Shown: positions 2-15,267 of the stretch, piece by piece
Numbering within the stretch: the stretch's first letter is position 1
Layout of the letters: every line of letters begins with the position of its first letter
From: Clostridia bacterium
GTDB lineage: Bacteria; Bacillota; Clostridia; Oscillospirales; Acutalibacteraceae
Reading direction: 5' to 3'
DNA: 15,267 nt
NCBI GenBank assembly: GCA_017424125.1
Contig: JAFPBM010000008.1
Location: forward strand, 1-15,267
Program-made: the position numbers and the translations under genes
Notes under the pieces: model-generated
Database searches by the model: none
What the model was told of the DNA's origin: nothing
Seen by the model: only the letters and a program-made list of their open reading frames with translations

Positions 2-625
2 CGCAAAGTGCGCGTGCTTAACGGCGCACACACTTCGTCGGTTTTGGCGGCATACCTTGCGGGTAAAACTATCGTCCGCGATATGATGCAGGACGAAATT
101 TTAGGCTATTTCACAAGGCGCGTTGCAGAAGAGGAAATTGCCCCTTGCGTGCCGCTTCCGCAAGACGAGGTTAAAGCCTTTGCCGACTCGGTGTTTGAAC
201 GTTTTGAAAACCCGTTTATCGACCACGAACTATTATCAATTTCTCTTAATTCCGTTTCAAAATGGAAAGCAAGGGTATTGCCTTCTTTCAAGGATTACTA
301 TTATAATAGAAAGGCACTGCCAAAACTTATAACCTTTTCTTTTGCTGCGCTACTTGCGTTTTATTCGTCCTGTGATTTAAGGGAGGACGGATTACACGCA
401 AAACGTGCAAACGGTGACGAGTACGTTATCCACGATGACCGAAAGGTTTTAGAGTTTTTTGCACAGAACGTCGGCAAGGCTGATTTTATAAAATCTGTTT
501 GCCAAAACCAAGATTTTTGGGGCGAAGATTTAAGCCTTTATGATAATTTCACACAAGACGTAACGTTTTGGTATGAAAAAATAATGGCCGACGCAAAAGA
601 TGCTTTAAGGCTTGTTTTACAATAA
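2..625 (+). CDS. uxaB: Tagaturonate reductase (altronate oxidoreductase), C-terminal part
   Basis: This is the 3' end of a cytoplasmic NAD-dependent oxidoreductase of the polyol/mannitol dehydrogenase family. It reduces D-tagaturonate to D-altronate in galacturonate breakdown. The reading frame is already open at the window edge, so the N-terminal Rossmann domain is missing; about 207 residues of a protein usually near 480 remain. The first residues contain the family's catalytic signature K-x4-N-x2-H (KVRVLNGAH), and the following SSVLAAYLAG is typical of UxaB rather than of mannitol dehydrogenases. The rest is the helical C-terminal domain. The stop lies 13 bases before the ATG of the next gene, so the two are probably co-transcribed. 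The uxaA gene two positions downstream supports the substrate assignment. A fructuronate reductase (UxuB) is the main alternative. Confidence 0.88.
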   Translation, partial: RKVRVLNGAHTSSVLAAYLAGKTIVRDMMQDEILGYFTRRVAEEEIAPCVPLPQDEVKAFADSVFERFENPFIDHELLSISLNSVSKWKARVLPSFKDYYYNRKALPKLITFSFAALLAFYSSCDLREDGLHAKRANGDEYVIHDDRKVLEFFAQNVGKADFIKSVCQNQDFWGEDLSLYDNFTQDVTFWYEKIMADAKDALRLVLQ

Positions 626-638
626 CAGAGGGGGACTT

Positions 639-2312: not shown

Positions 2313-2330
2313 TACAAAGGTGTTAACACA

Positions 2331-3761
2331 ATGAAATCTATAAAAATACATAAAAACGATAACGTTGCCGTATCTTTGGAAAACGGCAACGTTCCTGCGG
2401 GGCACAAGGTTGCGCTTTGCGATATAAAACGCGGCGAAGAAATTATTAAATACGGTTACACGATTGGCGTTGCATCTGCCAACATAAAATCGGGCGAACA
2501 CGTGCATTCACACAATATGCGTTCGTCGCTTTCGGGTGTTTCAAGTTATGAATATACACCGCAAAACGTTGGAACTGAAACTAAAAAGCCCCGCGCGTTT
2601 TTGGGTTATAAACGCAAAAACGGCAGGGTTGGCGTACGCAACGAGGTATGGATTATTTCAACGGTTGGTTGCATTAGCGCAACGGCAACCGAACTTGCAA
2701 AACGCGCACAAAAATATAAAACCGAAAACATTGACGGCATTTACGCTTTTACCCACGCATACGGTTGTTCGCAATTAGGGGACGATATGGAAATGACGCT
2801 TTCGGCGCTTTACGGACTGTCTTGCAACCCCAACGCCGCAGCGGTGCTTATTTTAGGTCTTGGTTGCGAAAACGGAAACATAAACGAATGGCTTAAGCGT
2901 TTCCCTGATTTTGACGCCGACAGGGTAAAATTCTTAAACTGTCAAGATGTTGATGATGAACTTACCGTCGGCGAAAAAATACTTGAAAAACTTTGCGCCT
3001 TGGCAGACGATGACAGAAGAACGCTTTGCGATGCGAGTGACCTTGTAATCGGTCTTAAATGCGGCGGCTCGGACGGATTTTCGGGCATCACCGCCAACGC
3101 GCTTTTAGGCAAGTTTACCGACGCCCTTGTGTCAGAGGGTGGCAGCGCAATTTTGACCGAAGTGCCCGAAATGTTTGGCGCCGAACAAATTTTAATGAAC
3201 CGCGCCGTAAACAAAGACGTTTTTGAAAACACCGTAAACCTTATAAACAATTTCAAAAAATATTTTCTGCGCTACGGCGAACCCGTTGACGAAAATCCGT
3301 CGCCGGGAAACAAAGAGGGCGGAATTACCACACTTGCCGAAAAATCTCTTGGTTGTGTGCAAAAGGGCGGTACAGCACCCGTTATGGACGTACTTGCATA
3401 CGCAGAAGGAGCAAAAGAAAAAGGTCTTTCTCTGCTCAACGCACCGGGCAACGACCTTGTTGCATCTTGTGCACTTGCGGCGTCGGGCGCACAGATTGTG
3501 CTTTTCACAACAGGCAGAGGAACGCCGTTCGCCTGTCCCGTTCCCACCGTTAAAATCAGCAGCAACACAAACCTTTTTGAAAAGAAAAGTGCGTGGATTG
3601 ATTTTAACGCAGGCGTCTTGCTTGACGGCGAAGACGCAGACGCGGTTGCCGACAGATTTTATGATTTTGTTTTGCAGATAGCAGAGGGCAATATTAAAAC
3701 CAAAAGCGAGAAATTAGACAAATCCTCATTCGCAATATGGAAAGACGGCGTAACGTTATAA
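2331..3761 (+). CDS. uxaA: Altronate dehydratase, full-length SAF-UxaA form
   Basis: This enzyme dehydrates D-altronate to 2-keto-3-deoxy-D-gluconate, the step after UxaB in galacturonate catabolism. It is an iron-dependent cytoplasmic enzyme. The 476 residues match the usual length of about 490. Residues 8-65 form the SAF domain, with the histidine-rich HVHSHN at 57-62. The UxaA core runs from about 88 to 472, beginning with GYKRKNGRVGVRN. It has conserved cysteine motifs in THAYGCSQLGDD, LGLGCENGN and GLKCGGSDGFSG, and later GRGTPFACPVPT. The start is supported by AAAGGTG about 8 bases upstream. The gap from the hydrolase stop is 18 bases, and an intrinsic terminator follows the stop codon directly, so this is the last gene of the operon. 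Galactarate dehydratase (GarD) belongs to the same superfamily, but the neighbouring uxaB makes altronate the better substrate. Confidence 0.92.
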   Translation: MKSIKIHKNDNVAVSLENGNVPAGHKVALCDIKRGEEIIKYGYTIGVASANIKSGEHVHSHNMRSSLSGVSSYEYTPQNVGTETKKPRAFLGYKRKNGRVGVRNEVWIISTVGCISATATELAKRAQKYKTENIDGIYAFTHAYGCSQLGDDMEMTLSALYGLSCNPNAAAVLILGLGCENGNINEWLKRFPDFDADRVKFLNCQDVDDELTVGEKILEKLCALADDDRRTLCDASDLVIGLKCGGSDGFSGITANALLGKFTDALVSEGGSAILTEVPEMFGAEQILMNRAVNKDVFENTVNLINNFKKYFLRYGEPVDENPSPGNKEGGITTLAEKSLGCVQKGGTAPVMDVLAYAEGAKEKGLSLLNAPGNDLVASCALAASGAQIVLFTTGRGTPFACPVPTVKISSNTNLFEKKSAWIDFNAGVLLDGEDADAVADRFYDFVLQIAEGNIKTKSEKLDKSSFAIWKDGVTL

Positions 3762-4623: not shown

Positions 4624-4654
4624 TTTTCTATCAAACTTGAAAGGGTTGTTTAGA

Positions 4655-6694
4655 TTGAAACAGTACAAGGTAACCAACATTAAAAACATTGCTTTGCTCG
4701 GCCACGGCGGAAGCGGAAAGACCACGTTGGCAGACGCAATTTTATATTATGGAAAGGCAACCGACCGCATAGGTAAGAACGCAGATGGCACAACCGTTAT
4801 GGACTTTGACGCCGAGGAGAAAAAGCGCAAGGTATCGGTCAGCACGTCGGTTTATCCAATTGAAATCGGCGAAAACAAAATAAACCTGCTTGACGCACCC
4901 GGACAGTTCGACTTTGCGGGTGGCGTAAGCGAGGCACTTACCGCCGCAGATTCGGCTTTAATTGTACTTTCGGGTAAATCAGGTCTTACCGTTGGCGCAC
5001 AAAAAGCGTATGATAGCGCACGCGCACAAGGCAAACCCGTTGCTTTCTTTATCAACAAACTTGATTCGGTACACGCGCACTTCTACCGCGTTATTTCTAT
5101 ATTGACAGGTAGATACGGCGGCGTTATCTGCCCCGTTATCATTCCTTACGTTGAAGGTGAGCACGTTGTTTGCTACATAAACCTTGTAAACGGCAAGGCA
5201 TACACCTTTGACGGAATTACCGCCAAAGAGTATCCGTCGGTACCCGAAAACTCCGACACCGCCAGCATGCGCGACATTATGCTTGAGGCGGTTGCTTCGA
5301 CCGACGAAGAACTTATGGAAAAATATTTTGGCGGTGAAGAGTTTACCGAAGAGGAAATTAAAGCGGCTTTGCGCAAGGGTATGCTCTTTGGCGATATTTG
5401 TCCCGTTATGTGCGGTATCGGTCAGGACGGTTCTGCCGTTTCACTTATGACCGATTTGCTCTCGGAAATCGCACCTTCTGCCGCCGACGTTGCGATAAAG
5501 TGCGGTGATGAGGAAATTAAACCGACCGAAGACGGCCCCGCCGCCGCGATTGTTTTCAAAACCATTGCCGACCCGTTTGTTGGCAAACTTTCATATTTCA
5601 AGGTTATAAGCGGCAGCGTATCTGCCGACTCCAAACTTATAAACCGCCGCACAGGCGCAGAAGAACGTCTTTCCAAAGTTATGTACATTAAAGCGGGCAA
5701 ACAGGAAGACGCCGCAAAGATTACGGCGGGCGACATTGGCGCCGTTGCGAAACTCGGTAACGTTATAACGGGCGATACGCTTTGCGATGCCGCATTTAAA
5801 AAGACCGTTACTGCCGCCGCATTCCCCATGCCGCAACTCACTATGGCGGTTTATCCCAAGAACAAGGGCGAAGAAGAAAAAATTGCCCAAGGTCTTACAA
5901 GACTTATGGAAGAAGACCCGACGATTTCTTTCGCCATCAACAACGAAACAAAAGAACAGTTATTGTCAGGTCTTGGCGAACAGCACATTGACGTTATCGT
6001 ATCCAAACTTGCATCTAAATTTGGCGTAGCGGTTGATTTGCGCACGCCGCGCGTTGCATACCGCGAAAAAATCAGAAAACCCGTCAAGGTTCAGGGCAGG
6101 CACAAGAAGCAATCGGGCGGACATGGACAGTTTGGTGACGTTTGGATTGAGTTTGAGCCGTGCGACAGCGACGAGATGATTTTCGAAGAGAAAATCTTCG
6201 GCGGCTCGGTACCCAAGAACTTCTTCCCCGCCGTTGAAAAGGGCTTGCGCGAGAGCGTAACACGCGGTGTTTTGGCAGGTTATCCTGTTGTTGGACTCAA
6301 AGCCACGCTTGTCGACGGTTCTTACCACCCCGTTGACTCGTCCGAAATGTCCTTCAAAACAGCCGCGGCAATCGCATATAAAGAGGGTATTCCGCAGGCG
6401 TCCCCCGTTTTGCTTGAGCCGATTGGCACACTTAAAGTTACAATCCCCGAAGACAACATGGGCGACGTAATTGGCGACATCAACAAGCGCAGAGGTCGCG
6501 TTATCGGCATGAATCCTCTCCAGAACAAACTTCAAGAGGTTGTGGCAGAAGTTCCGATTGCCGAGACGTCCGATTTCTCCACCGCTATGCGTTCAATAAC
6601 TCAGGGCAGAGCCGAATTTACGCTCACGTTTGAGCGTTATGAAGAGGTGCCCGCCAACATCTCCGCAAAAATTATCGAAGACGCAAAAGAATAA
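4655..6694 (+). CDS. EF-G-like translation factor GTPase (FusA paralogue)
   Basis: The 679-residue protein has the full EF-G domain plan: an N-terminal GTPase, then domains II to V, including the domain IV segment HKKQSGGHGQFGDVWIEFEP. It should be a cytoplasmic ribosome-associated GTPase. Its G motifs differ from canonical EF-G. The P-loop is GHGGSGKT (16-23) rather than AHIDAGKT, G3 is DAPGQFDF (80-87) rather than DTPGHVDF, and G4 is NKLD (134-137). The catalytic histidine position of G3 is therefore glutamine. This pattern fits the EF-G-like second paralogue common in Clostridia, whose exact role is unsettled, rather than the main elongation factor or a TetM-type protection protein. The frame is open from TTG 4637, but TTG 4655 is chosen because GAAAGGG lies 9 bases before it. 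It is monocistronic, with its own promoter and terminator. Confidence 0.87.
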   Translation: MKQYKVTNIKNIALLGHGGSGKTTLADAILYYGKATDRIGKNADGTTVMDFDAEEKKRKVSVSTSVYPIEIGENKINLLDAPGQFDFAGGVSEALTAADSALIVLSGKSGLTVGAQKAYDSARAQGKPVAFFINKLDSVHAHFYRVISILTGRYGGVICPVIIPYVEGEHVVCYINLVNGKAYTFDGITAKEYPSVPENSDTASMRDIMLEAVASTDEELMEKYFGGEEFTEEEIKAALRKGMLFGDICPVMCGIGQDGSAVSLMTDLLSEIAPSAADVAIKCGDEEIKPTEDGPAAAIVFKTIADPFVGKLSYFKVISGSVSADSKLINRRTGAEERLSKVMYIKAGKQEDAAKITAGDIGAVAKLGNVITGDTLCDAAFKKTVTAAAFPMPQLTMAVYPKNKGEEEKIAQGLTRLMEEDPTISFAINNETKEQLLSGLGEQHIDVIVSKLASKFGVAVDLRTPRVAYREKIRKPVKVQGRHKKQSGGHGQFGDVWIEFEPCDSDEMIFEEKIFGGSVPKNFFPAVEKGLRESVTRGVLAGYPVVGLKATLVDGSYHPVDSSEMSFKTAAAIAYKEGIPQASPVLLEPIGTLKVTIPEDNMGDVIGDINKRRGRVIGMNPLQNKLQEVVAEVPIAETSDFSTAMRSITQGRAEFTLTFERYEEVPANISAKIIEDAKE

Positions 6695-6696
6695 AC

Positions 6697-6729
6697 AAAA
6701 ATCCGCAGAGATTTTCTCTGCGGATTTTT
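6697..6729. terminator. Intrinsic terminator shared by the EF-G-like gene and the phage cassette
   Basis: A 15-bp stem (6697-6711 with 6715-6729, core ATCCGCAGAGA) and a 3-base loop are followed by T-runs on both strands. It starts two bases after the EF-G-like stop. The stop codon of the last phage gene (6730-6732 on the minus strand) abuts the other side, so one hairpin ends both converging transcripts. Confidence 0.9.
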
Positions 6730-7089
6730 TTACGTTGCTGCAAACTTATAACTTAATGCCGCAACCGTGAGTTCCTCGATAATGGTATCGTTTTCTCCCA
6801 GAATTTCTTTATAGTCAACCCATTCACAATTTTCATAACTTGTGTCGTAACGAGAATAAGATACGCTAAGCGAAAAGCCTTTAAGCGGGCGCAGTTCTAC
6901 GCCGTCATTTAAAGTGTCTTCTATGTGTCTTTTCCTTGTGATTTTCACGTCTATGGTCTTGAGGCTGACGCTAAGTTTGCCGTCCTGTATATTGCGGTCA
7001 CGGTTATAAACCGTTTCAATTTTTTCAACACCTGCCAGGCGATTACCGTTTATTCTGACCGTTATCGACCTTGATACGTCGTATCCCAT
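6730..7089 (-). CDS. Small phage structural protein, possibly tail-tube-like
   Basis: This 119-residue protein is the last gene of the cassette. The ATG at 7089 overlaps the previous stop as TAATG, with GGAGGG 9 bases upstream. It is preferred over the in-frame ATG at 7116. The sequence is rich in predicted beta strands with alternating polar and hydrophobic residues (SITVRINGNRLAGVEKIETV, LSVSLKTIDVKITRK, FSLSVSYSRY). This is compatible with a small tail-tube or baseplate-hub beta-barrel fold, and its place after a tail-terminator-like gene fits a tube protein. I cannot name a family. It carries no signal peptide or transmembrane segment. No tape-measure gene follows, which would normally come next in a tailed phage. 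Confidence 0.6.
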   Translation of the reverse strand: MGYDVSRSITVRINGNRLAGVEKIETVYNRDRNIQDGKLSVSLKTIDVKITRKRHIEDTLNDGVELRPLKGFSLSVSYSRYDTSYENCEWVDYKEILGENDTIIEELTVAALSYKFAAT

Positions 7090-7535
7090 TAATATCCGCC
7101 CTCCGAATCTCCGCATATTCTATCGTGAAGGTGTATGGTAACGGGCAAAATTGTGCACATAAAGGTTGAGTTATAATGCATTTTACCCGCCTCAATTTTG
7201 GTTACGGTAAGCGAACTTCCCAAAAGCGCTTCAATCATATACGTCAAAACGTTGTAATTGAAAAAACCGCTTGCGGTATGCGGTAGATAAACGTTTGCGG
7301 AAATTGCAACGTCGGCAGGTATAGAATAAACGCCTGTGCCGTTTTTTTCACCCGCATAAAGCATATTTTTACGCAAATCTGCATCAAGCGTCTGCAGTCC
7401 TACCGTTATCATCGGTTCGGCAAGCGGCATATCCATTATCTGTACCTTGTATACCGACACAACCTTAACAGCCATATCGCTTATACCGTTTAAAACCGAT
7501 ATCACCTTATCTATAATACTATTGATGCCCTTCAT
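7089..7535 (-). CDS. Tail-terminator / tail-completion-like phage protein
   Basis: The likely product is 148 residues. An upstream in-frame ATG at 7544 has GAGGG directly against it, whereas the ATG at 7535 has the same GAGGG at a good 9-base spacing, so 7535 is chosen. Either start overlaps the end of the previous gene, which implies translational coupling. The protein begins with a short amphipathic helix (MKGINSIIDKVISVLN). An alpha/beta body follows with strands such as VKVVSVYKVQIM and ADVAISANVYLP, then the helix NVLTYMIEALLG. This layout, with its position between a closure-like and a tube-like gene, fits tail-terminator proteins that cap the tube at the head-tail joint. The assignment rests mainly on position and fold impression. 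Confidence 0.62.
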   Translation of the reverse strand: MKGINSIIDKVISVLNGISDMAVKVVSVYKVQIMDMPLAEPMITVGLQTLDADLRKNMLYAGEKNGTGVYSIPADVAISANVYLPHTASGFFNYNVLTYMIEALLGSSLTVTKIEAGKMHYNSTFMCTILPVTIHLHDRICGDSEGGY

Positions 7536-7878
7536 ACTCGCCATCCCTCACTGTTCTGTAAAGCACCGCCCAAACGTAAAACGGCTTACCGCCGCAGTAT
7601 ATCATTTGTGCGCGTTTTACGCGGTGTTTATATCCTTCAAAATAAATTTTAACCGTTTCCCAATCGTGCGAAAAATCGTATTCGGGCGGTCCGATATATA
7701 GAAAACAACCGTTGTCACGTCTGCCCATTTCGCCTTTCGGCAAATCGATATACATTTTGTTTTTATACCTCATAAGTTGTATAAAAGCCTTGTAATACTG
7801 CGATTCGAACGGCCATTGCAGTTCTACATCCTGACCGCATTTTGAAAAAAGTTTACCTATCTTTTTTGTGCTGTCCAT
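7519..7878 (-). CDS. Head-closure / neck-like small phage protein
   Basis: The protein has 119 residues. The ATG follows GGAGGG and lies 13 bases from the stop of the connector gene. The N-terminus is helical and basic, and the rest looks beta-rich, with the stretch GCFLYIGPPEYDF, then a strand pair and AQMIYCGGKPFYVWAVLYRTV. The 'YIGP ... GG-x2-FYVWAVL' pattern resembles small minor capsid or head-closure proteins of Firmicute prophages that I have seen annotated between connector and tail-terminator genes. That is recollection of a pattern, not a demonstrated homology. A structural role at the portal-tail interface is inferred from gene order. No enzymatic motif is visible. Confidence 0.62.
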   Translation of the reverse strand: MDSTKKIGKLFSKCGQDVELQWPFESQYYKAFIQLMRYKNKMYIDLPKGEMGRRDNGCFLYIGPPEYDFSHDWETVKIYFEGYKHRVKRAQMIYCGGKPFYVWAVLYRTVRDGEYEGHQ

Positions 7879-7890
7879 AACCGCCCTCCG

Positions 7891-8256
7891 TCAAATCGTT
7901 TTAAAACAAAACGCTGAATGTTTAAGGCATCCGTCCACCGAAAGAAGTGCGTCGTGCAAGAGTTCTTTAGCCGAAAGCCTTGCGCCGTCGGGCCTGTTTT
8001 GAATATTAACGTCGCCCGCCTTGTAAACAGCAACGTTATCACACCCGCGCGAAAGAGTGTAGCGGTAAAACGCAAGACACGCGGCAGCATATATAAGTCC
8101 ATCTTCCCATTTTTCTCGAGAAGCGCTTGGCTTCACCCGAGACAAAAGGGTGAAGACCGCGCTTTCGCAAAAAGGGGAAAAGATAGCGCTGTCCGTTTCG
8201 CCCGAAAGGGCGAGGGCAAAATCGCATACCCTATCTAAAGGCAAAGAGTTTATCAT
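7891..8256 (-). CDS. Head-tail connector (gp6-like) protein
   Basis: The product is 121 residues and almost entirely helical, with a central segment DGLIYAAACLAFYRYTLS. That segment resembles the small helical connector proteins that form a ring below the portal, as in HK97 gp6 and SPP1 gp15. A GTG codon at 8265 extends the frame by three residues, but AAGGCGGTG lies 6 bases before the ATG at 8256 and overlaps that GTG, so the ATG is chosen. The gene follows the major capsid gene, the standard place for this connector. The high cysteine content (C11, C29, C59, C75 and others) is odd for a virion protein. Family assignment is by position, size and helicity. Confidence 0.65.
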   Translation of the reverse strand: MINSLPLDRVCDFALALSGETDSAIFSPFCESAVFTLLSRVKPSASREKWEDGLIYAAACLAFYRYTLSRGCDNVAVYKAGDVNIQNRPDGARLSAKELLHDALLSVDGCLKHSAFCFKTI

Positions 8257-8270
8257 TGCCGTCACCGCCT

Positions 8271-9278
8271 TTAAACAGAGAGAATCTTGGAAGCGTCTGT
8301 AAAGATTTTTGCAAAACCAACCGTTGAAGTAACGGCGGCGCGTTCAAGCTGACGGTCGATAAGTTTATCGTAATCAACCGAAACATCGTTTGCAATTACC
8401 ATTTCAAGAGCGCATGACTTATCAAGACCGATAACAACACTATCGGGAGTAGAAGCGGCTTTAATAAACTCTGCACCCAAGGGATGACCTATCTTGCCTG
8501 TGCCCTGGAAGTTGATGCCTGTAACAGGGTTTTTGAACTCTTCTAACTGCAAAAGATTTATCATCATAGCGGGCGACGCAATCAAGGTTGTGAGCTGATG
8601 CGGGTCAAGGCGGTTAAGAAGTTTAATAAGGTCGTTATAGGAAAGAACGCCCTCTTTATCCGCACTGATAATCTCTGCCGCATTATCGTTTCCGTCACCA
8701 TTCAAGAGAACCATGATGGCGTCTGACAATTGCTGACGCGCAATGTACGCACCAATTTGCTTTAACGTTACTGTGAACAAATCAAGACGCTGATACTTAA
8801 GAGCCTCGTATGACGCAACAAGCATTCTACCGCGCTTGTTAAGTTTTACAAGATTATCCTGTGTGTGAATTCGTGTCTGAGGAATATACGCGCCCTCACC
8901 AACAATCTTGAGTTCGCGTTCGTCTTCTGTAGGAACAGAGGCGATTGTGCGGTAATCAAGACCGTCTATACGGGTTTTGGTGGCAACGATAGAATCAAGC
9001 ACCTTTGCCTCTTCCATACCCTGCTTTACTGCGCGGGAAATATACTCAGGGAACAATGCCGCCGACTGTGTTGTTGCAAAGAACTTGTTAACGCAGTCAC
9101 TGCCTGTTCCGCCAACTTTAATATCAAAACGCTTTAACTGTCTGCCGAAAGCATCAAGATTTGCATCTGCGGTGCCTTCGTAATTTTGTGTGGGGTCGAG
9201 CGATTCAAGCACTTCGCTGAACGACTTGCCCGAAACGGCATACATACCCTTTTCAAGTTTAATGTTTTCGTAACTCAT
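8271..9278 (-). CDS. Major capsid protein, HK97-fold
   Basis: This 335-residue protein forms the icosahedral shell. Its position after the protease and decoration genes, its length, and features such as the N-terminal-arm-like region (QNYEGTADANLDAFGRQLKR), a long helix (SRAVKQGMEEAKVLDSIV) and beta-hinge-like strands match phage capsid proteins of the HK97 fold. So does a P-domain region with GDGNDNAAEII and LDPHQLTTLIASPAMM. It lacks the long coiled-coil delta domain of about 100 residues seen at the N-terminus of HK97 gp5. The separate scaffold encoded within the protease gene can explain that. AAGGAGG lies 6 bases before the ATG. The gap to the upstream decoration gene is 12 bases. It is probably the most highly translated gene of the cassette. 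Confidence 0.85.
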   Translation of the reverse strand: MSYENIKLEKGMYAVSGKSFSEVLESLDPTQNYEGTADANLDAFGRQLKRFDIKVGGTGSDCVNKFFATTQSAALFPEYISRAVKQGMEEAKVLDSIVATKTRIDGLDYRTIASVPTEDERELKIVGEGAYIPQTRIHTQDNLVKLNKRGRMLVASYEALKYQRLDLFTVTLKQIGAYIARQQLSDAIMVLLNGDGNDNAAEIISADKEGVLSYNDLIKLLNRLDPHQLTTLIASPAMMINLLQLEEFKNPVTGINFQGTGKIGHPLGAEFIKAASTPDSVVIGLDKSCALEMVIANDVSVDYDKLIDRQLERAAVTSTVGFAKIFTDASKILSV

Positions 9279-9290
9279 TACCTTTCCTCC

Positions 9291-9629
9291 TTAAAAAATG
9301 ATGCCGACTTTTTTAGTTTCGTAATCATACTTGATTACCTGAACAATGTTTCCGTTTTCGGCTTTGCAGATGCCGCCCTTGCCGTCTGCAACAACGGTTT
9401 GCAAACCGTATCTAATGTCATCGCCGCTGCCCTGTACTTCAACATATCCGCCAACCTGTACAGTTGCAAAGTTGTTGCGCTCTACCACGCCGAAACCTAA
9501 AAAGGTCTCGCCCGAGGATGCCAAGCAAACACTACCATCATAATTTATTGTCAGTGGTTTACCTGCAATTTCCGTATCACCGCATCTTGCTGTGATAATT
9601 TTTTCATCAAAACCTGTGTAATCTAACAT
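9291..9629 (-). CDS. Capsid decoration / cement-like protein
   Basis: The protein has 112 residues, is Gly- and Val-rich, and is probably all-beta, with no signal peptide. It contains FLGFGVVERNNFATVQVGGYVEVQ (read in two parts: residues 43-54, then 55-66) and ends in VQVIKYDYETKKVGIIF. Small Gly-rich beta proteins between the protease and the major capsid gene are usually decoration or cement proteins that bind the outside of the capsid (lambda gpD place, DUF2190-like properties). AAAGGAAG precedes the ATG by about 7 bases, and the gap from the protease stop is 16 bases. I infer the function from position, size and composition; there is no diagnostic motif. Confidence 0.65.
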   Translation of the reverse strand: MLDYTGFDEKIITARCGDTEIAGKPLTINYDGSVCLASSGETFLGFGVVERNNFATVQVGGYVEVQGSGDDIRYGLQTVVADGKGGICKAENGNIVQVIKYDYETKKVGIIF

Positions 9630-9645
9630 AATTTTCTTCCTTTCA

Positions 9646-9984
9646 CTAAATCATAAAATCTAAATTTTCAGATTTATTTATTTTTGTTTTGGGTGCAAGT
9701 TGAACTTTTGCACCCTTTTCTTTTTGGAAAGCGCGGTACAGTTCATCAAGTTCCGAAACGCTCATCTTTTCAGCAATTGCCTTTATTGTTTCGGCACTAA
9801 CGCCCGAAAGCGCCTTTTCAATACCGCCTATTACGGCTGTGCGTTTTTCGGCTATAAAACTTTTGCCGATTTCGCAAAGGGTTTTAAGTTCGCCTATGTA
9901 AAGCGAAAGCGATGCCGCCTCGTTTGCCGAGAGTGTAATTTCCTCTCCGGCGCCGAGTTGCTTTACAATATCAATGTTAGTCAA
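9646..9984 (-). CDS. Nested scaffold protein from an internal TTG start
   Basis: Inside the protease gene, in the same frame, AAGGAGAGA (9991-9999) is followed 9 bases later (counted from its GGAG core) by a TTG at 9982-9984. Starting there gives a 112-residue protein identical to protease residues 203-314. The first residues, (M)TNIDIVKQLGAGEEITL, begin exactly where the protease domain ends and the helical scaffold-like domain begins. The content is Lys/Glu-rich and predicted helical, without cysteines outside Cys239 of the long form. Phage lambda uses the same plan, with scaffold Nu3 translated from within protease gene C. A strong ribosome site at a domain boundary is seen directly; that it is used is inferred. 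Confidence 0.55.
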   Translation of the reverse strand: MTNIDIVKQLGAGEEITLSANEAASLSLYIGELKTLCEIGKSFIAEKRTAVIGGIEKALSGVSAETIKAIAEKMSVSELDELYRAFQKEKGAKVQLAPKTKINKSENLDFMI

Positions 9985-10590
9985 ATTTTTTCTCTCCTTT
10001 TTTTCAAAAGACTTGGTTATTCCCGCGCGTCTTTGCGCAGGAACCGCAACAAAAGACCACTCATACGCATCCTGAGGGTTAGAAAGTACGGTATGACAAA
10101 GTGCATTGCCGTAACGTTTGCCCTTGCGGTGAACGCAGCCTTCAGCGCGCGACTTGCCGCATATAGAACACGTGTGAGAACCCATACTGCAACCGATGCT
10201 GACCTCTTTTTTAATACCCGCTTCAATCTCGGCTATGAGGTTTTTGTTTTGCTCGGTTTTAAGCATATACGCCCTTGCACACAACCTTTTATACTGTCTG
10301 CCGTCACGCGTCTGTTCGCCCTCGGGCTTTTCGGTGTAACAACTAAAAATGCGCGCTTTCTGATTTTCGCTTTTAGCACTATGGTCGCAAATGCCCGTTC
10401 TGCCGACAAAAAGTTTCGAAAGAACGTCCAGCGCATCGTCCGAAAAACGCTCAAAATCGCGGTCAATATCGTTGTCACAAAGCGTTACGGTAAAGGCGTA
10501 TATCTCCTCCGCTTTATGTTCGCGGCGGGTGTATTTGTTTATAAGCGCGAGTTCGCCGTCTCGCAGAGTGCTCGTTTCTTTATTTTCCAT
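9646..10590 (-). CDS. Prohead protease with fused C-terminal scaffold domain
   Basis: The product is 314 residues. Residues 25-195 match HK97-type prohead serine proteases. His70 (GICDHS) and Ser131 (KKEVSIGCS) are the probable catalytic pair, and AYEWSFVAVPAQRRAGITKS (175-194) is the typical end of the domain. An insert right after the serine, CSICGKSRAEGCVH (141-154), is a likely zinc knuckle of form CxxC-x7-CxH. Residues 203-314 are charged and helical and look like a scaffold, which the protease would digest during maturation. The ATG overlaps the portal stop as TAATG, so translation is probably coupled. The C-terminal half also appears to be translated separately from an internal TTG. 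A long antisense frame across this gene is only a shadow. Confidence 0.85.
   Translation of the reverse strand: MENKETSTLRDGELALINKYTRREHKAEEIYAFTVTLCDNDIDRDFERFSDDALDVLSKLFVGRTGICDHSAKSENQKARIFSCYTEKPEGEQTRDGRQYKRLCARAYMLKTEQNKNLIAEIEAGIKKEVSIGCSMGSHTCSICGKSRAEGCVHRKGKRYGNALCHTVLSNPQDAYEWSFVAVPAQRRAGITKSFEKKERKNLTNIDIVKQLGAGEEITLSANEAASLSLYIGELKTLCEIGKSFIAEKRTAVIGGIEKALSGVSAETIKAIAEKMSVSELDELYRAFQKEKGAKVQLAPKTKINKSENLDFMI
9991..9999 (-). promoter_or_regulatory. Internal Shine-Dalgarno for the nested scaffold
   Basis: AAGGAGAGA on the minus strand lies inside the protease coding region and is well spaced from TTG 9984. It encodes the Lys-Glu-Arg linker of the protease, so the purine run could also be a by-product of a charged linker. 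Confidence 0.5.
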
Positions 10591-11717
10591 TACTTTTTAT
10601 CCCCCGTTTCTTTTATGATTTTTTCTGCCTGTGCATTATAAAGTTTCGCTTGTGCTAACGAAATCTCATCCTGCAAACTTATGTTGTTCCATTCAAGGTT
10701 TACGTTGCAAAAATATCCTTCGCCACGCAAAAATGCATGGCAAATTTTAAGTAGCACGGGTGTTATAAGTGTTCTGTAATATTCAAGTTCGCTTGTTAAA
10801 ATGTCCGCCTGTTGAGATGACATACGCTCGGTTGTGGACCAAGTAAGTCCCAACAAAAACGGCGGCAAACCTGTTTTTGCAATAATTTGCTCTGTAAGTG
10901 TGCGGATTGGCACCTCGATATCGGGCATTACGGTGTCGCCGCCTATTACCTTAATGTCAACGTCGCCCACCGCAACAAAATCCTTAACCGTAGAACTGTC
11001 ACGCATGGCATCCGACCATGCAGATGCTATCTCGTCGGCGCGGTTTTCGGATATCCCCTGCGTATCAGACGGACGATACGTCACAGCAAAACGCAGATTG
11101 CCAAGTCTTTCAAAATTTACGCCAATAGTATTGTAAATTTTAAGCAAAACTTCACTAACAAAAGGCAGACCGCGCAGAATTGAAATACCGTACGCGCTAT
11201 CAGGTTCGGGTGATAGTGCCGTTACCGTAATTCTTTCGGGATGCGGAACCTTTTCGCCGCCCGCTGTACGAATTACGGGGCACAAAGGATTTTCTTCCAC
11301 CGAAAGTTCAAGATTTTCAAGCGCGGCGGTATAAAGTGCCCTGAGTTTTCCGCTATTATCAAGCACCATCTCGTTAACGGCGGTACCGTAGGTTAAAAGC
11401 CTGTCAACCGTACTGCTTATGAAACTCTCTATTCCGCTTGATACGGGACCGGTGGGGACGGTAGATAGAAAATCGTTAAGCAGTTTTTCGGCAGATTTAT
11501 CGCTACACTTTACCTGTACTCCACCTACAAGGCGTACGATTTTACCGATTGCCGCATCGATAATCGGTATGGCCTCGCGCAGGGCTTTGTACATAGTAAG
11601 TTCTGTTCGCGATATCCCTTGTGTGCGGTTGACGAGAGAAAATCCGTCGTTGCCGCGCGCGGTCTGTACCGCCGCAGTAACCGCACCGCTTTTTTTGTTT
11701 CTTTTAGAAATTTTAAT
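10590..11717 (-). CDS. Phage portal protein, apparent ATT start
   Basis: The portal is the dodecameric ring through which terminase pumps DNA into the head. From the ATT at 11717 the product is 375 residues. The first ATG is only at 11594 and would remove 41 residues that look like a normal portal start (KISKRNKKSG, then TQGISRTELT leading into MYKALREAIPIIDAAIGKIV). No ATG, GTG, TTG or CTG lies between the upstream in-frame stop and that ATG. The stretch GIESFISSTVDRLLTYGTAVNEMV and the C-terminal region TGLPPFLLGLTW...QADILTSELEYYRTLITPVL are typical of portal core and wing. The gene sits between TerL (36-base gap) and the protease (1-base overlap). If ATT is not used, the ATG-initiated 334-residue form would lack part of the clip or stem-proximal region. 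Confidence 0.82.
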   Translation of the reverse strand: MKISKRNKKSGAVTAAVQTARGNDGFSLVNRTQGISRTELTMYKALREAIPIIDAAIGKIVRLVGGVQVKCSDKSAEKLLNDFLSTVPTGPVSSGIESFISSTVDRLLTYGTAVNEMVLDNSGKLRALYTAALENLELSVEENPLCPVIRTAGGEKVPHPERITVTALSPEPDSAYGISILRGLPFVSEVLLKIYNTIGVNFERLGNLRFAVTYRPSDTQGISENRADEIASAWSDAMRDSSTVKDFVAVGDVDIKVIGGDTVMPDIEVPIRTLTEQIIAKTGLPPFLLGLTWSTTERMSSQQADILTSELEYYRTLITPVLLKICHAFLRGEGYFCNVNLEWNNISLQDEISLAQAKLYNAQAEKIIKETGDKK

Positions 11718-11731
11718 GGTTATTCCTCCTT
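11715..11731 (-). promoter_or_regulatory. Perfect ribosome binding site facing an ATT start codon
   Basis: AAGGAGGAA (11723-11731, minus strand) is followed by ATT at 11715-11717, 7 bases after the GGAGG core. A TAA in the same frame lies just upstream of this site, so translation cannot begin farther up. The nearest ATG in frame is 123 bases downstream and has no comparable ribosome site. Confidence 0.75.
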
Positions 11732-11753
11732 TTTAAGTCGGATTATTCTGTTT

Positions 11754-12998
11754 TTATCTTCTCGCCGCTACGGCAAAGACCGATTGCTCGTTACCATAAA
11801 GCACCGTTGATACAAAATATCTGATATCGTCCATTGCGTGGTCGTTCTCTTTTATCGGAGTATCGCGTACGGCTGACGTATCCCAACGGTAGAGCGAAAA
11901 CTCACGTGCGGCATCGAGGCAACCGCGGCAAATTTTAATTTTTCCGCCCCTTAATGCATCAGACACGCGGCGAATTCCGTCAAGCACGTCGTTTTTTGCG
12001 GCAATACATCTGTACTTTCCGTGCTTGCGGATAAGGGTTATAAAGGAGGCGGCTGACGGGTCACATATTACGGCGGAGATGCTTCTGCCGTCTGCTAACT
12101 TTTCCAAAGCAATATAATATTCTTCATCGGTTTTCTGCGCGCCCTCTTTGCGAGAGGAATAATAATATTCGTCTATACGGTACCACACGCCGTCACAAAG
12201 TCCCCACAGTCCAAAGGATGACGGGTTGACGGTGCCGTAATCGCAGGAAACGTAGTATTTTTCACAGTTTAGGGGCACGTCGCAGAGCATATCGTCTTTG
12301 AAAAACGGATAGACAAGTCCCTCAGATGCCACCCATTTCCCCAGCACGTAACGCTCGTAAAATACGCCTGAATAAAGCGACGCATAGCGCGAGCGCATGC
12401 TATTTGACAGCGACGGATTTTCCGCCATTGTGAAATGAAGATAAAGTGCGTTTTTCGCCTTTTTACCCTTTATCCACTCTTTATAGAACCAGTGCGACGG
12501 CGACGAGGGATTGCAGTTGAAGAAAAATTTAGAGCCCTCGACCGAGCAACGCGCAAGCGCCTGTTCCACAAATGAGCGCGGCATAAGCACAACCTCGTCA
12601 AACAGTACGCCCGAAAGCGTCATTCCCTGTATGAGCGCGGCGCTTGATTCATCTTTACCGCCGAAAAGATAGTACCTGTTTTGTATGCCGTCGCGGCTAA
12701 TCTCCAATATTCCGCGGCTAAGCGTTTCTTTACATTCAAAACCGAGTGTTCGCAACGTTTCGCACATCGGGGTGATTAGATTGCGTCTAAGCGACGTTAC
12801 GGTTTTACCGCAAAGCGCGAAATCGGCACCGCTAAATCGGTAAAAAGACCAAAATATAAAGGACAAAAAGAGGCAGAGTGATTTTCCGCTTCGTACGGCG
12901 CCGTCACATATAAGCGCGTCGCACGAATTATAGGGACTTTCCGCATGCCAAAAGGTGAGTGCCGTCATCTGCTTTTTAGAAAAGGGCTTAAATTCCAT
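11754..12998 (-). CDS. Terminase large subunit, PBSX-like family
   Basis: This is the packaging motor ATPase and headful nuclease, 414 residues from ATG 12998. The frame continues to an ATG at 13037, but 12998 overlaps the TerS stop by 11 bases, has GGTGAAGA nearby and begins with the usual FKPFSKKQMTALTFW. The ATPase domain has Walker A GAVRSGKS (33-40), Walker B VLFDEV (131-136, with Asp134-Glu135) and the coupling motif FNCNP (160-164). The RNase H-like nuclease has acidic residues in SCDYG (Asp253), ICDPS (Asp313) and HAMDDIRY (Asp390/391). All key residues are present, so the enzyme looks functional. The family (Terminase_3/Terminase_6C, PBSX type) commonly packages by the headful mechanism. 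It is coupled to the small subunit upstream. Confidence 0.93.
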   Translation of the reverse strand: MEFKPFSKKQMTALTFWHAESPYNSCDALICDGAVRSGKSLCLFLSFIFWSFYRFSGADFALCGKTVTSLRRNLITPMCETLRTLGFECKETLSRGILEISRDGIQNRYYLFGGKDESSAALIQGMTLSGVLFDEVVLMPRSFVEQALARCSVEGSKFFFNCNPSSPSHWFYKEWIKGKKAKNALYLHFTMAENPSLSNSMRSRYASLYSGVFYERYVLGKWVASEGLVYPFFKDDMLCDVPLNCEKYYVSCDYGTVNPSSFGLWGLCDGVWYRIDEYYYSSRKEGAQKTDEEYYIALEKLADGRSISAVICDPSAASFITLIRKHGKYRCIAAKNDVLDGIRRVSDALRGGKIKICRGCLDAAREFSLYRWDTSAVRDTPIKENDHAMDDIRYFVSTVLYGNEQSVFAVAARR

Positions 12999-13467
12999 TT
13001 TCTTCACCCATAAACGACAAATTTTTGGCACCCTCACACAAGGCGCGGTAAAAGGGCTCGGCCGAACCGCCGACGGTTTCCGTTTCGCCCGACTGTAATA
13101 AATCGAGCGCTTTTATACGGTCATAAAACTTAATATCCATACCGCCCTTGGAGAATTTTAGTTCGGACACCATAAACAAATCCAAACTTTCGAGTTCCTC
13201 TTTAGTCACGGGGGTTTCCTTAGTAGCGAGATACACCGCATCGGCTATACTGCCAAACGCTATGCGCCGCAAACCCTCTTCTGCACTCGGTTTCAAAAGA
13301 GAATTTTGTTTTTCCATCTCCCGTTTTACCCCCTCTTTTTTAAGAAGCCGCAGTGCACTTCTTTCAGGAAAGGGGTATCCCGCACGCGCCGCTGCCTCTC
13401 GCGGCGAATGTAGGATTTTGTAGTACTGACAAAAGAGCGCCTCTTTTGCCGATAATCTGTTTGCCAT
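12988..13467 (-). CDS. Terminase small subunit
   Basis: The product is 159 residues. The N-terminal region LSAKEALFCQYYKILHSPREAAARAGYP is the helix-turn-helix characteristic of Terminase_2-family small subunits, which recognise the DNA to be packaged and load the large subunit. A helical oligomerisation region follows, then a short C-terminal tail (EPFYRALCEGAKNLSF) that may contact TerL. GGAGGTG lies 6 bases before the ATG at 13467, so the start is firm. It is the first gene of the cassette and lies next to a repeat-rich intergenic region. The end overlaps terL by 11 bases. Confidence 0.9.
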   Translation of the reverse strand: MANRLSAKEALFCQYYKILHSPREAAARAGYPFPERSALRLLKKEGVKREMEKQNSLLKPSAEEGLRRIAFGSIADAVYLATKETPVTKEELESLDLFMVSELKFSKGGMDIKFYDRIKALDLLQSGETETVGGSAEPFYRALCEGAKNLSFMGEENGI

Positions 13468-13505
13468 TTAAAGCCACCTCCACATATACCCTGTAAAAAC
13501 GGCGT

Positions 13506-13540
13506 TTGTTGCACAAAACCGTGCAACAAGTATGCAACAA
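13506..13540. promoter_or_regulatory. Operator candidate: inverted plus direct TTGTTGCA repeats
   Basis: TTGTTGCAC (13506-13514) and GTGCAACAA (13521-13529) form a perfect 9-bp inverted repeat with a 6-base spacer. A third copy, TGCAACAA (13533-13540), repeats the right arm at an 11-base period, one helical turn. The site lies 39 bases upstream of the terS start and about 100 bases upstream of the divergent S1-domain gene. Adjacent on the S1 side is the 12-bp palindrome AAAAAATTTTTT (13544-13555). No clear -35/-10 pair is visible for terS. The hairpin could alternatively act as an attenuator in the terS leader, but its following T-run is six bases away. Confidence 0.55.
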
Positions 13541-13637
13541 ATTAAAAAATTTTTTGATTTTGCAATTTTCCACAGCACATTAAACGCAAACCTTTCGCAT
13601 ATATTAATGTTGAATGACAAAAGAAAGGTTGATTATA

Positions 13638-14570
13638 ATGACAAGGTTTTGCCCCGAGGGCTTACTTATGAACAAAACTGAAAATATACGCGCCTATTCG
13701 TCGCCACAGAAATTAACCGAAGCGATGCATAGCGGCACGGTGCTTGAGGGAATTGCCGAGGTGTGTGATGCAGAACACAACCTTTGGGTAAACCTTGGGT
13801 GTATGCGCGGTGTAATTCCGCGTGAAGAGGGTGCTATCGGAATGGCGAGTGGCCAGGTGCGCGATATTGCACTTTTATCCCGCGTGGGCAAGGCGGTTTG
13901 TTTTACCGTAAGCGCCATAAAAGAAGACCGTTTTGGAAAACTGTACGCCACACTTTCCCGCCGCGACGCGCAAGAAAAATGTCAAAATGAATACATAAAA
14001 AAACTGCGCCCCGGCACAGTGGTCGAGGCGCGAATTACGCATCTTGAAAGTTTTGGTGCGTTTTGCGATATCGGTTGCGGCAATATTGCCTTATTACCTA
14101 TTAACTCTATTTCGGTTTCACGTATATCCCACCCGCGCGACCGCTTTTTTGCGGGTGAAGACATAAAGGCTGTTGTGCGAAGCGTGGGCGAAGACGGCAA
14201 AATCACCTTATCCCACCGCGAACTTTTGGGTACGTGGGAAGAAAACGCCGCACAGTTTTCACAGGGCGAGACGGTATCAGGTATTGTGCGCTCCGTAGAG
14301 CCTTACGGCGTTTTTGTTGAACTTTCTCCCAACCTTGCGGGACTTGCAGAGCCAAAACCCGACGTATTTATAGGTCAGGGTGCGAGCGTATACGTCAAAA
14401 GCATTATCCCCGACAAGATGAAGGTTAAACTTATTATTATTGACAGTTTTTCGGCTAATTATTCACAAAACAAAAAATATTTTTTCACAGGCGACTATAT
14501 GGACTACTGGGAATATTCACCCAAAGACAGTTATAAAAAAATTGTTACGGATTTCCTTGAAAAAATATAA
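13638..14570 (+). CDS. Three-S1-domain RNA-binding protein (ribosomal S1-like)
   Basis: The likely product is 310 residues. The ATG at 13614 has no ribosome site, whereas AGAAAGG lies 9 bases before the ATG at 13638. The N-terminus TRFCPEGLLMNKTENIRAYSS resembles the start of a clostridial S1-like family I recall. Three OB-fold S1 domains are visible at about 33-107 (degenerate; WVNLGCMRGVIPREEG), 123-194 (GTVVEARITHLESFGAFCDIG, ending KITLSHREL) and 207-268 (GETVSGIVRSVEPYGVFVEL). Such proteins bind single-stranded RNA and may aid translation or RNA turnover. It is shorter than E. coli S1 (six domains), as is common in Firmicutes. It is divergent from the phage cassette. I could not assign its own promoter with confidence. 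Confidence 0.82.
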   Translation: MTRFCPEGLLMNKTENIRAYSSPQKLTEAMHSGTVLEGIAEVCDAEHNLWVNLGCMRGVIPREEGAIGMASGQVRDIALLSRVGKAVCFTVSAIKEDRFGKLYATLSRRDAQEKCQNEYIKKLRPGTVVEARITHLESFGAFCDIGCGNIALLPINSISVSRISHPRDRFFAGEDIKAVVRSVGEDGKITLSHRELLGTWEENAAQFSQGETVSGIVRSVEPYGVFVELSPNLAGLAEPKPDVFIGQGASVYVKSIIPDKMKVKLIIIDSFSANYSQNKKYFFTGDYMDYWEYSPKDSYKKIVTDFLEKI

Positions 14571-14584: not shown

Positions 14585-14602
14585 ATGCCATAGGTGATAT
14601 TT

Positions 14603-15267
14603 ATGGCAGAAGAAAGAAAATGTAACGAACAGGGTTGCACGGGCGATTGCTCGTCTTGCTCTAAAGCTAAAAGTCCTGAAATAACCAAAGAACAGGGCAA
14701 CGAATACAGCAGCATAAAGAAGACAATCGGTATTGTAAGCGGTAAGGGCGGCGTTGGAAAATCGCTCGTCACGGGTACTCTTGCAACACTTATGAGAAGA
14801 CGCGGCAACGAGGTTGGCATTATGGACGCCGATATTACAGGTCCGTCAATACCCAAAATGTTTGGTGTTAAATCCCGCGCTTATCAGAATGAACTGGGAT
14901 TATTACCCGCCGCAACGCAGACCGATATCCGCGTTATGTCGGTAAACCTCTTGCTCGATTCAGAGGATTCGCCGGTTGTATGGCGCGGTCCCGTTTTGGC
15001 AGGCGTTGTAAAACAGTTTTATAACGACGTTGTGTGGGGAGACCTTGATTATCTGTTTATCGATATGCCCCCCGGAACAGGCGACGTTCCGCTGACAGTA
15101 TATCAGTCTATCCCGCTTGACGGCATTATAATTGTTACGTCCCCGCAAGACCTCGTTTCGCTTATTGTTAAAAAAGCATACAATATGGCGAAGATGATGA
15201 ACGTTCCCGTTTTGGGAATTGTGGAGAATATGAGTTATACCGTATGCCCCCACTGCAACGAAAAACA
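14603..15267 (+). CDS. mrp: Mrp/NBP35 iron-sulfur cluster carrier ATPase, 3' end missing
   Basis: The first 221 residues of a cytoplasmic P-loop ATPase that holds and transfers Fe-S clusters are present; the frame is open at the window end. Key features are the deviant Walker A GKGGVGKS (47-54, with signature Lys48), switch I DADITGPSIP (75-84) and switch II DMPPGTGD (154-161). CPHC (215-218), the inter-subunit cluster-binding pair, lies at the right edge. The N-terminus adds a cysteine cluster (Cys7, Cys12, Cys16, Cys19) like that of eukaryotic Nbp35 and many clostridial Mrp proteins, so a second cluster may bind there. AGGTGA lies about 5 bases before the ATG. The gene has its own promoter and is not obviously coupled to the S1-domain gene. 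Confidence 0.92.
   Translation, partial: MAEERKCNEQGCTGDCSSCSKAKSPEITKEQGNEYSSIKKTIGIVSGKGGVGKSLVTGTLATLMRRRGNEVGIMDADITGPSIPKMFGVKSRAYQNELGLLPAATQTDIRVMSVNLLLDSEDSPVVWRGPVLAGVVKQFYNDVVWGDLDYLFIDMPPGTGDVPLTVYQSIPLDGIIIVTSPQDLVSLIVKKAYNMAKMMNVPVLGIVENMSYTVCPHCNEK

Follow-up and report, generated by a model that had tools for sequence, protein, structure and literature searches.

A ten-gene phage-type capsid operon of a Clostridia bacterium as a candidate domesticated, tail-reduced gene transfer agent

Why would a bacterial chromosome hold an intact set of phage head genes between housekeeping genes, with no integrase, repressor or replication gene beside them? The question is raised by a stretch of 15,267 nucleotides (the window) from a Clostridia bacterium of the family Acutalibacteraceae (assembly GCA_017424125.1, contig JAFPBM010000008.1). 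Ten co-oriented open reading frames (ORFs) on its minus strand, at 6730-13467, are free of internal stops and follow the order small terminase (TerS), large terminase (TerL), portal, protease/scaffold, small decoration-like protein, capsid, g7, g8, g9 and g10; none of the three phage functions named above was found in the window. A first-pass annotation had described ten structural genes, reaching up to the neck and perhaps a tube protein, between an EF-G-like gene and S1/mrp genes, and the coordinates, open frames and family matches all agree with that description. We consider it probable that the operon is a domesticated, vertically inherited capsid module of PBSX type (a viriform) that works like a gene transfer agent (GTA) and is tail-reduced in the window. 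Its genes are the following.

12988..13467, minus strand: TerS, small terminase subunit, 159 residues, with a good ribosome site (Pfam Terminase_2, 7e-11; phrog_2606, phrog_51)
11754..12998, minus strand: TerL, large terminase of the PBSX family (TIGR01547, Terminase_6N, phrog_2, PDB 5oe8)
10590..11717, minus strand: portal (phrog_30703, 3e-117; Phage_portal, 2.5e-7 and 30.7 bits, under the cut-off of 39.1)
9646..10590, minus strand: prohead protease/scaffold in the XkdF position, 314 residues (phrog_16951, 1.7e-89)
9291..9629, minus strand: small virion structural protein, decoration-like, 112 residues (phrog_4588, 2e-14)
8271..9278, minus strand: major capsid protein, 335 residues (Phage_capsid_4, 2.7e-14; phrog_3922, 1.4e-97)
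7891..8265, minus strand: g7, putative connector by its position alone (XkdH position), 124 residues
7519..7878, minus strand: g8, putative head-closure protein by its position alone (XkdI position), 119 residues
7089..7544, minus strand: g9, tail terminator, 151 residues (fold of a homologue and shared profile family)
6730..7116, minus strand: g10, tail tube protein, 128 residues (fold of the window protein)

TerL matches Terminase_6N at 2e-9, the PBSX-family model TIGR01547 at 193 bits (cut-off 105) and phrog_2 at 4e-46, and aligns to two solved terminases, 5oe8 (3.8e-139) and 5oea, with values of about 1e-137 or below. It contains GAVRSGKS and acidic motifs, which we take to be the Walker A and acidic motifs of terminases. 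Mechanical ORF calling begins the gene at GTG 13037; the homologues begin at ATG 12998, which is probably the true start. The protease/scaffold has no match in Pfam and reaches a head maturation protease family (phrog_18299) at only 0.013, and its His70 and Ser131 are invariant in 13 of 13 aligned homologues. CxxC and CxH are also conserved across these 13 proteins and resemble a zinc-binding insert. A search of solved structures with the capsid profile returned nothing, and the decoration-like gene is missing or unrecognised in the loci of some relatives. The family libraries hold no match to g7 or g8; profiles built from the two genes match 117 and 114 ORFs, respectively, in 121 loci. The homologue of g9 that shows a tail-terminator fold is 14% identical to the window protein and is joined to it via iterated profiles. 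For g10 the window protein itself shows a tail-tube fold, together with a match to phrog_27038 (6e-6) and a weak sequence match to a tail tube.

The distribution of the cassette was assessed through its capsid gene. Among 200 genomes of the family, 112 carry it (the window's own included), corresponding to 99 of 157 good genomes and 79 of 135 genera. There is always one match per genome and none of the 112 has an internal stop, two being partial at contig starts (G131, G079); the other capsids of the family are 44-77% identical to that of the window. At the level of the order, the capsid profile matched in 71 of 394 genomes from six families (35 in the own family, f1; 20 in f14; 12 in f26, with G492 weak; 2 in f15; 1 each in f7 and f2), with a single match in 69 and two rows in 2. 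At the level of the class, 11 of 391 genomes matched; three of these matches come from other orders and are more distant. Named relatives, among the 80 of 114 loci listed, include Oscillibacter, Massiliimalia, Flavonifractor and Pseudoflavonifractor, and proteins named Ruminococcus are close to the f26 loci; a look through protein names for Faecalibacterium brought up Ruminococcus and Oscillospiraceae alone. Judging from such names, we take the order to be the one to which Oscillibacter, Massiliimalia and Ruminococcus belong. In four loci (L067, L071, L074, L078) the order is rearranged, the decoration and capsid genes standing ahead of the portal and protease genes.

To follow the inheritance of the cassette, a wide tree was built from TerL, portal and capsid (134 loci, 1094 columns), in which sampled congeners mostly group together, g15 and g74 being exceptions. 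Comparison with the host was made on 27 carriers with a usable RpoB, and on carriers only. The cassette and RpoB trees have 18 of 24 splits in common, against a mean of 0.26 and a maximum of 3 in 500 label shuffles, and their distances correlate at 0.83, a value reached in none of 5000 permutations. The six splits that differ possibly reflect some transfer or tree error. Seven head-only genomes from five genera (G000, G183, G083, G032, G117, G004, G139) form a split in both trees, with a support of 0.86 for RpoB and 0.995 for the cassette, and in the wide tree this clade also takes in L034 and L138 (G130, a cut contig) with a support of 0.991. Adding the head-only G089 gives a larger split that is again present in both trees (1.0 and 0.995). 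In the wide tree three tail-bearing loci (L035, L043, L146) lie within this larger group or next to it, so tail loss in G089 may be a separate event. The cassette adjoins the S1 gene divergently in G000, G183, G032, G117, G004, G139, G130 and L034, and not in G083 or G089. Combined, these results indicate that inheritance of the cassette has been largely vertical. A recent deletion, which that annotation had left standing as the cause of the head-only state, fits poorly with a state common to seven genomes of five genera and monophyletic in both trees.

Selection was estimated as the ratio of nonsynonymous to synonymous substitutions (dN/dS) by a counting method, with 40 of 61 close pairs listed. 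Four head-only pairs from other clades than the window's (L096-L097, L061-L076, L044-L120, L048-L117) give a dN/dS of 0.07-0.11 for TerL, 0.06-0.12 for the portal, 0.05-0.06 for the capsid, 0.08-0.12 for the protease and 0.07-0.13 for the matched part of g9. The closest pair in the window's clade, L033-L034, has a high dS and gives about 0.11 for TerL, 0.15 for the capsid, 0.19 for the protease and 0.21 for the portal. Between the window and its congener, the proportion of nonsynonymous differences (pN) is below that of synonymous ones (pS) in all ten genes (0.16-0.50 versus 0.64-0.86). The cassette is under purifying selection, as the first-pass annotation had suspected from preserved catalytic residues, gene overlaps and ribosome sites; the supporting range of 0.05-0.12 for TerL, portal and capsid comes from the four pairs of other clades.

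What has become of the tail was examined in 161 loci annotated by iterated profiles, 154 of which have a capsid match. The relatives form a stepwise series of tail reduction, from a PBSX-like contractile set through sheathless loci to head-only ones: 43 loci have a sheath, 37 are sheathless with a baseplate, 57 have no baseplate in the locus and 17 are cut by contig ends (this tally includes five duplicates, three of them head-only, and four distant non-cassette relatives scored as head-only, L287, L296, L310 and L311). Head-only loci occur in several separate clades of the cassette tree. In the tail-bearing set the terminator is followed in turn by the sheath, the tube, a LysM protein, the hub, baseplate proteins and the XkdT-like and XkdU-like proteins. 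From the capsid to the XkdU-like gene of 70 tail-bearing loci, the longest plus-strand frame has a median of 369 residues; in the interval between the tube and LysM genes it measures at most 289 residues in 36 sheathed and 159 in 30 sheathless loci. Since the longest frame in these 70 loci has 533 residues, even the fullest tail sets are without a long tape measure, and none was found in them. One tail-bearing locus, L315 (G046:C58), has its TerL and XkdT-like genes each split in two frames and is possibly decaying or mis-sequenced.

The window is the whole of contig C206, in a genome of 210 contigs; because this genome is 76% complete, absences from it are weak evidence and more complete relatives were used instead. 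The profile of the orthologous XkdT-like baseplate protein found nothing in 16 of 17 genomes whose locus has no tail genes (three of these loci being cut by contig ends and one carrying the deletion of G070 described below), with three of three controls detected. The exception, G080, has four weaker XkdT-like matches on other contigs. For the LysM tail protein, the genomes with tail-less loci gave only generic LysM-domain or weak partial matches, the three controls being found at full length. Pfam Baseplate_J (controls 3/3) had no match in 17 of 22 genomes with tail-less loci, G080, G005, G181, G067 and G156 having some, and none in ten genomes drawn from the window's genus and its closest relatives (G000, G183, G070, G083, G032, G117, G004, G139, G130, G089). 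PhageMin_Tail, a model that is not fully sensitive, matched nothing in the same ten. No baseplate was found in the window's clade by two profiles (XkdT-like and Baseplate_J), in a genome-wide search that covered the baseplate, LysM and tape-measure models. A tape-measure search of the window's own genome was empty and carries little weight, as the model missed tape-measure-like prophage ORFs visible by eye in G190 and G152.

In head-only loci of two other groups, g9 is a fusion of about 270-335 residues that joins the terminator domain to a C-terminal domain of about 130 residues (L044, L048, L061, L072, L073, L076, L117, L120 and L147 in one set, L095-L097 and L109 in the other; further cases are L062, in part, and three loci on cut contigs, L066, L141 and L145). 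A profile of the C-terminal domain detects it as a separate gene in 26 sheathless and six sheathed loci (L036 and L142 are one locus, and the match in L083 is weak and on the opposite strand). Among tail-bearing loci that extend at least 700 bases beyond the XkdU-like gene, the domain gene is found downstream of it, mostly at a distance of about 100 bases, in 25 of the 35 without a sheath and in 5 of the 29 with one. In the tree of the domain 16 of 17 fused copies cluster (0.957), with L109 apart. Nearest to this cluster, with low support, are separate copies from sheathless lineages that are also its neighbours in the cassette tree. The simplest origin of the fusion would be an internal deletion that joined the first tail gene to the last. 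The dN/dS of the fused domain is 0.13, 0.13, 0.14, 0.17 and 0.26 in five pairs, two of them near dS saturation, and a sixth pair is saturated.

As the fold searches barely covered the C-terminal half of the fusion model, a receptor-binding role of this domain is suggested by its position, by weak matches to a fibre family (0.008) and to DUF7483 (0.0028), each in 1 of 20 members, and by the linker, which resembles PDB 6r5w at 0.005; three stand-alone copies of the domain have no Pfam match. 6R5W is named as Listeria phage PSA (PMC8470116) and as a receptor-binding domain (PMC9710869). The fusion suggests that tailless particles still bind cells. The window's clade has no receptor-binding-like domain at the locus, and in the Oscillospiraceae head-only group the terminator seems, partly on a reading by eye, to have a tube-like C-terminus.

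How such a system may work can be outlined from its genes. Portal, protease and capsid protein would form a prohead, which TerS and TerL would fill with DNA, probably random host DNA since no replication or mobility genes lie alongside. The neck would be closed by g7, g8 and g9, with the tube protein g10 in the window. The ancestral head probably bore a tail, though a very short one. The locus of the window's clade has lost the genes for sheath, baseplate and fibre, and its particle would have little or no tail, a tube stub being the most that could remain. We infer particle formation, packaging of host DNA, release by lysis, binding and delivery, the last being least certain for the window's own clade. 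The window and its annotated relatives hold a phage-derived structural cluster without replication or mobility genes (integrases were looked for by eye, at the listed loci), and the cluster is vertically inherited, single copy and under purifying selection (with 6 of 24 splits differing, among carriers). Domestication and a likeness to GTAs had been proposed at first reading, and the single copy, the agreement with the host phylogeny and the purifying selection favour both. More tentatively, we suggest that the order may have evolved tailless GTAs through loss first of the tape measure, next of the sheath and then of the baseplate and tube; in some clades a binding domain would have come onto the terminator and the heads would bind at the neck. 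Within this scheme the window would be an extreme form, kept across genera, of capsid, motor, neck and a one-gene tube stub.

Several observations weigh against a GTA that works today. Firstly, particle, packaged DNA and transduction are predicted from genes alone, and the window locus contains no recognisable lysis gene, adhesin or regulator. Secondly, constraint is uneven. The genes g7-g10 diverge fast, with 32-46% identity within the genus, and dN/dS in head-only groups elsewhere rises to 0.67 across g7-g9. The Oscillospiraceae head-only group is more weakly constrained, with values up to 0.17 for TerL, 0.22 for the portal, 0.20 for the capsid, 0.56 for TerS and 0.67 for g9. Within the window's clade dS is largely saturated, which makes an exact dN/dS between the window and its congener unusable and leaves the strength of selection there unquantified, and low dN/dS alone would fit active phage genes too. 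Thirdly, the cassette is often lost, 88 of 200 family genomes, some of them incomplete, having no capsid match.

Fourthly, the portal has no canonical start codon behind its ribosome site: its Shine-Dalgarno sequence is followed by ATT (11717-11715). Read from the ATT, the frame is open and encodes 375 residues, the same as in the congener; the ATG-initiated ORF spans 10590-11594, and ATG 11594 is 41 codons downstream and has no ribosome site. The ATT may be a rare start, an assembly error or early decay. The first-pass statement that ribosome sites are preserved held for most of them, but not every start is canonical. Finally, the congener G070 (L303, G070:C51, 4063-6078) keeps mrp, S1, TerS, TerL and g10 at the same site and has lost portal to g9, by a deletion that takes away about the last 20 codons of TerL and stops just short of g10. 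This could be an assembly fault; otherwise that lineage can evidently do without the head genes. Of the findings named at the outset as telling against a conserved cassette, an emptied site is in part provided by G070, and a complete prophage at this position was not seen.

Such observations would be expected of a GTA relic, in which a working ancestor began to be inactivated by tail loss in the window's clade and the head genes are still intact as decay is slow or recent. It would account for the tail, lysis and adhesin genes that were not recognised at the locus, for the internal deletion in G070 and the ATT start of the portal, for the fast divergence of g7-g10 and for the 88 of 200 genomes without a capsid match. 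We nevertheless regard a relic as unlikely: the head-only state is found in seven genomes of five genera that branch as RpoB does, pN is below pS in all ten genes between window and congener, capsid frames are open in 112 of 112 carriers, and most ribosome sites of the operon, together with its terminator, are kept.

A second alternative is exaptation, the capsid packaging DNA without delivering it and serving, for instance, to disturb the assembly of phages, to sequester DNA or to lyse the cell altruistically. Neither an adhesin at the window locus nor a baseplate in its clade was recognised, as this would predict. The operon has no match to known defence families (PADLOC), it retains a packaging motor and a neck, and in other head-only clades the neck carries the receptor-binding-like domain, which points to delivery; we hold exaptation to be decidedly unlikely.

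It is very improbable that a recent deletion left the operon behind as the remnant of an ordinary prophage. Phage structural genes without lysogeny genes are what a remnant would show, but the core gene set and the head-only state are the same across genera. The phage collection gave nine matching records, five unannotated human faecal ones at 53-60% and four at about 26%, none of them an intact phage with this capsid. No full phage with it was found in the six longest viral-contig loci, some of which are partial; among viral contigs, 73 of the 80 listed (from 396 relatives) are 4-15 kb long. Four second copies of TerL that were examined lie in prophages without matches to the cassette's capsid or portal and without its other genes. 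Least probable of all is a capsid-forming satellite that borrows helper tails, an idea raised by the first-pass annotation and in keeping with a set of capsid, packaging and connector genes that lacks a complete tail: inheritance is largely vertical and in single copy, the relatives have tail genes of their own, neither an integrase nor a repressor or replication gene was seen in the window or by eye at the listed head-only loci (bar an XRE/ImmA pair in two congeners), and the ten genomes of the window's genus and nearest relatives have no Baseplate_J or PhageMin_Tail match, although the tape-measure model missed prophages elsewhere. An encapsulin compartment, which is an HK97-fold shell with a cargo protein and neither portal nor terminase, was rejected, as the portal and both terminase subunits are present and conserved.

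The domesticated capsid module that we favour can be placed among known systems. Its TerL is of the same family (TIGR01547) as that of PBSX of Bacillus subtilis, and the tail-bearing relatives match what we take to be the PBSX gene order (xtmA, xtmB, xkdE, F, G, H, I, J, K, M, P, Q, S, T, U). Unlike PBSX, the relatives have no long tape measure (xkdO) and the window has no tail set, so that a complete contractile tail is not encoded; PBSX is presumably confined to one species group, whereas the cassette spans an order. RcGTA and other alphaproteobacterial GTAs are chromosomal head-tail clusters with vertical descent, purifying selection and no mobility genes. The terminator and tube of the cassette resemble RcGTA chains in fold; RcGTA has retained a siphovirus-like tail and derives from another phage lineage. 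Satellites of the capsid-forming phage-inducible chromosomal island type (cf-PICI) also have capsid and packaging genes and are tailless, but they are mobile, bear an integrase and depend on a helper, none of which was seen for the cassette.

The closest tested precedent is FpGTA of Faecalibacterium, from the same broad bacterial group, which we liken to the cassette by description only. As reported (PMC12946183, January 2026), FpGTA has a chromosomal ten-ORF head operon with TerS, TerL, portal, scaffold, capsid and phage-like hypothetical genes, alone in 7 of 12 strains, and a second operon with baseplate, fibre and lysis (holin, endolysin) genes. The particles are about 40 nm, with no identifiable tail, and hold 8.4-8.9 kb of host DNA. 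The same paper counts only PBSX and FpGTA as GTAs of Gram-positive bacteria and describes GTA-like packaging in two further cases, Ruminococcus callidus (4.6 kb) and an Oscillospiraceae genome, with the operon unreported there. FpGTA differs in the baseplate of its second operon, none being found in the window's clade. Full-text literature, a scope that leaves out most subscription papers and bioRxiv preprints, yielded no report of the order-wide cassette, the tail-loss series or the fusion. If the tailless scheme is true, double-stranded DNA heads that deliver their DNA with no tail at all would represent a new solution. Known GTAs are few, and a cassette spread across families that include common gut bacteria is a candidate gene set; in particular, it offers candidate genes for the host-DNA packaging reported in Ruminococcaceae and Oscillospiraceae beyond Faecalibacterium (PMC12946183). 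The series from contractile to tailless, with a binding domain at the neck, makes the minimal phage needed for DNA delivery testable in cultured commensals.

The operon is bounded by the following features.

6697..6729: terminator-like stem-loop of 15 pairs, the operon end
13468..13613: divergent intergenic region between the TerS and S1 genes, the likely operon start
4637..6694, plus strand: EF-G-like translation factor, convergent flank (NF009381, 834 bits)
13614..14570, plus strand: S1-domain protein, divergent flank, neighbour of the cassette in most of the window's clade
14594..15265, plus strand: Mrp/ApbC-like ATPase, truncated by the contig end (NF041136, 290 bits; as a fragment below the cut-off of 450)

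The stem is followed by T's and lies between g10 and the convergent EF-G-like gene. No sigma-70-type match was found on the minus strand of 13468..13613. The GC content of the operon genes, 0.43-0.48, is inside the range of the flanking DNA. In two congeners an XRE repressor and an ImmA/IrrE-like peptidase stand beside the cassette (L132 6908-7740, with HTH_3 at 3e-17 and Peptidase_M78 at 4e-15; L303 6110-6940), a pair presumably reminiscent of xre/xkdA of PBSX. As a general regulator it was rejected, being present only in L132 and L303 and absent from the window, with other XRE matches near cassettes scattered. At the head-only loci with listed ORFs, no integrase was seen by eye.

Some further loci deserve mention. 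More PBSX-type TerL genes of the same family, 47-54% identical to that of the window, lie in prophage-like regions (L358, L361, L363, L367). On one viral contig a tyrosine integrase (L226 18256-19428; Phage_integrase, 8e-24) lies beside a tail-bearing cassette and probably belongs to a neighbouring element. At least one of the five human faecal records of the phage collection that carry the cassette, a 46.7 kb "bacteriophage" entry (L353, MT835508.1), reads by eye as plain chromosome, with Rnf-like, ABC transporter and ribosomal protein genes around a head-only cassette, a content that fits packaging, contamination or a wrong label. In the window itself, positions 2-3761 carry a cluster resembling sugar-acid catabolism, with the end of a tagaturonate reductase-like gene followed by trehalase/glucosidase-like and galactarate dehydratase-like genes.

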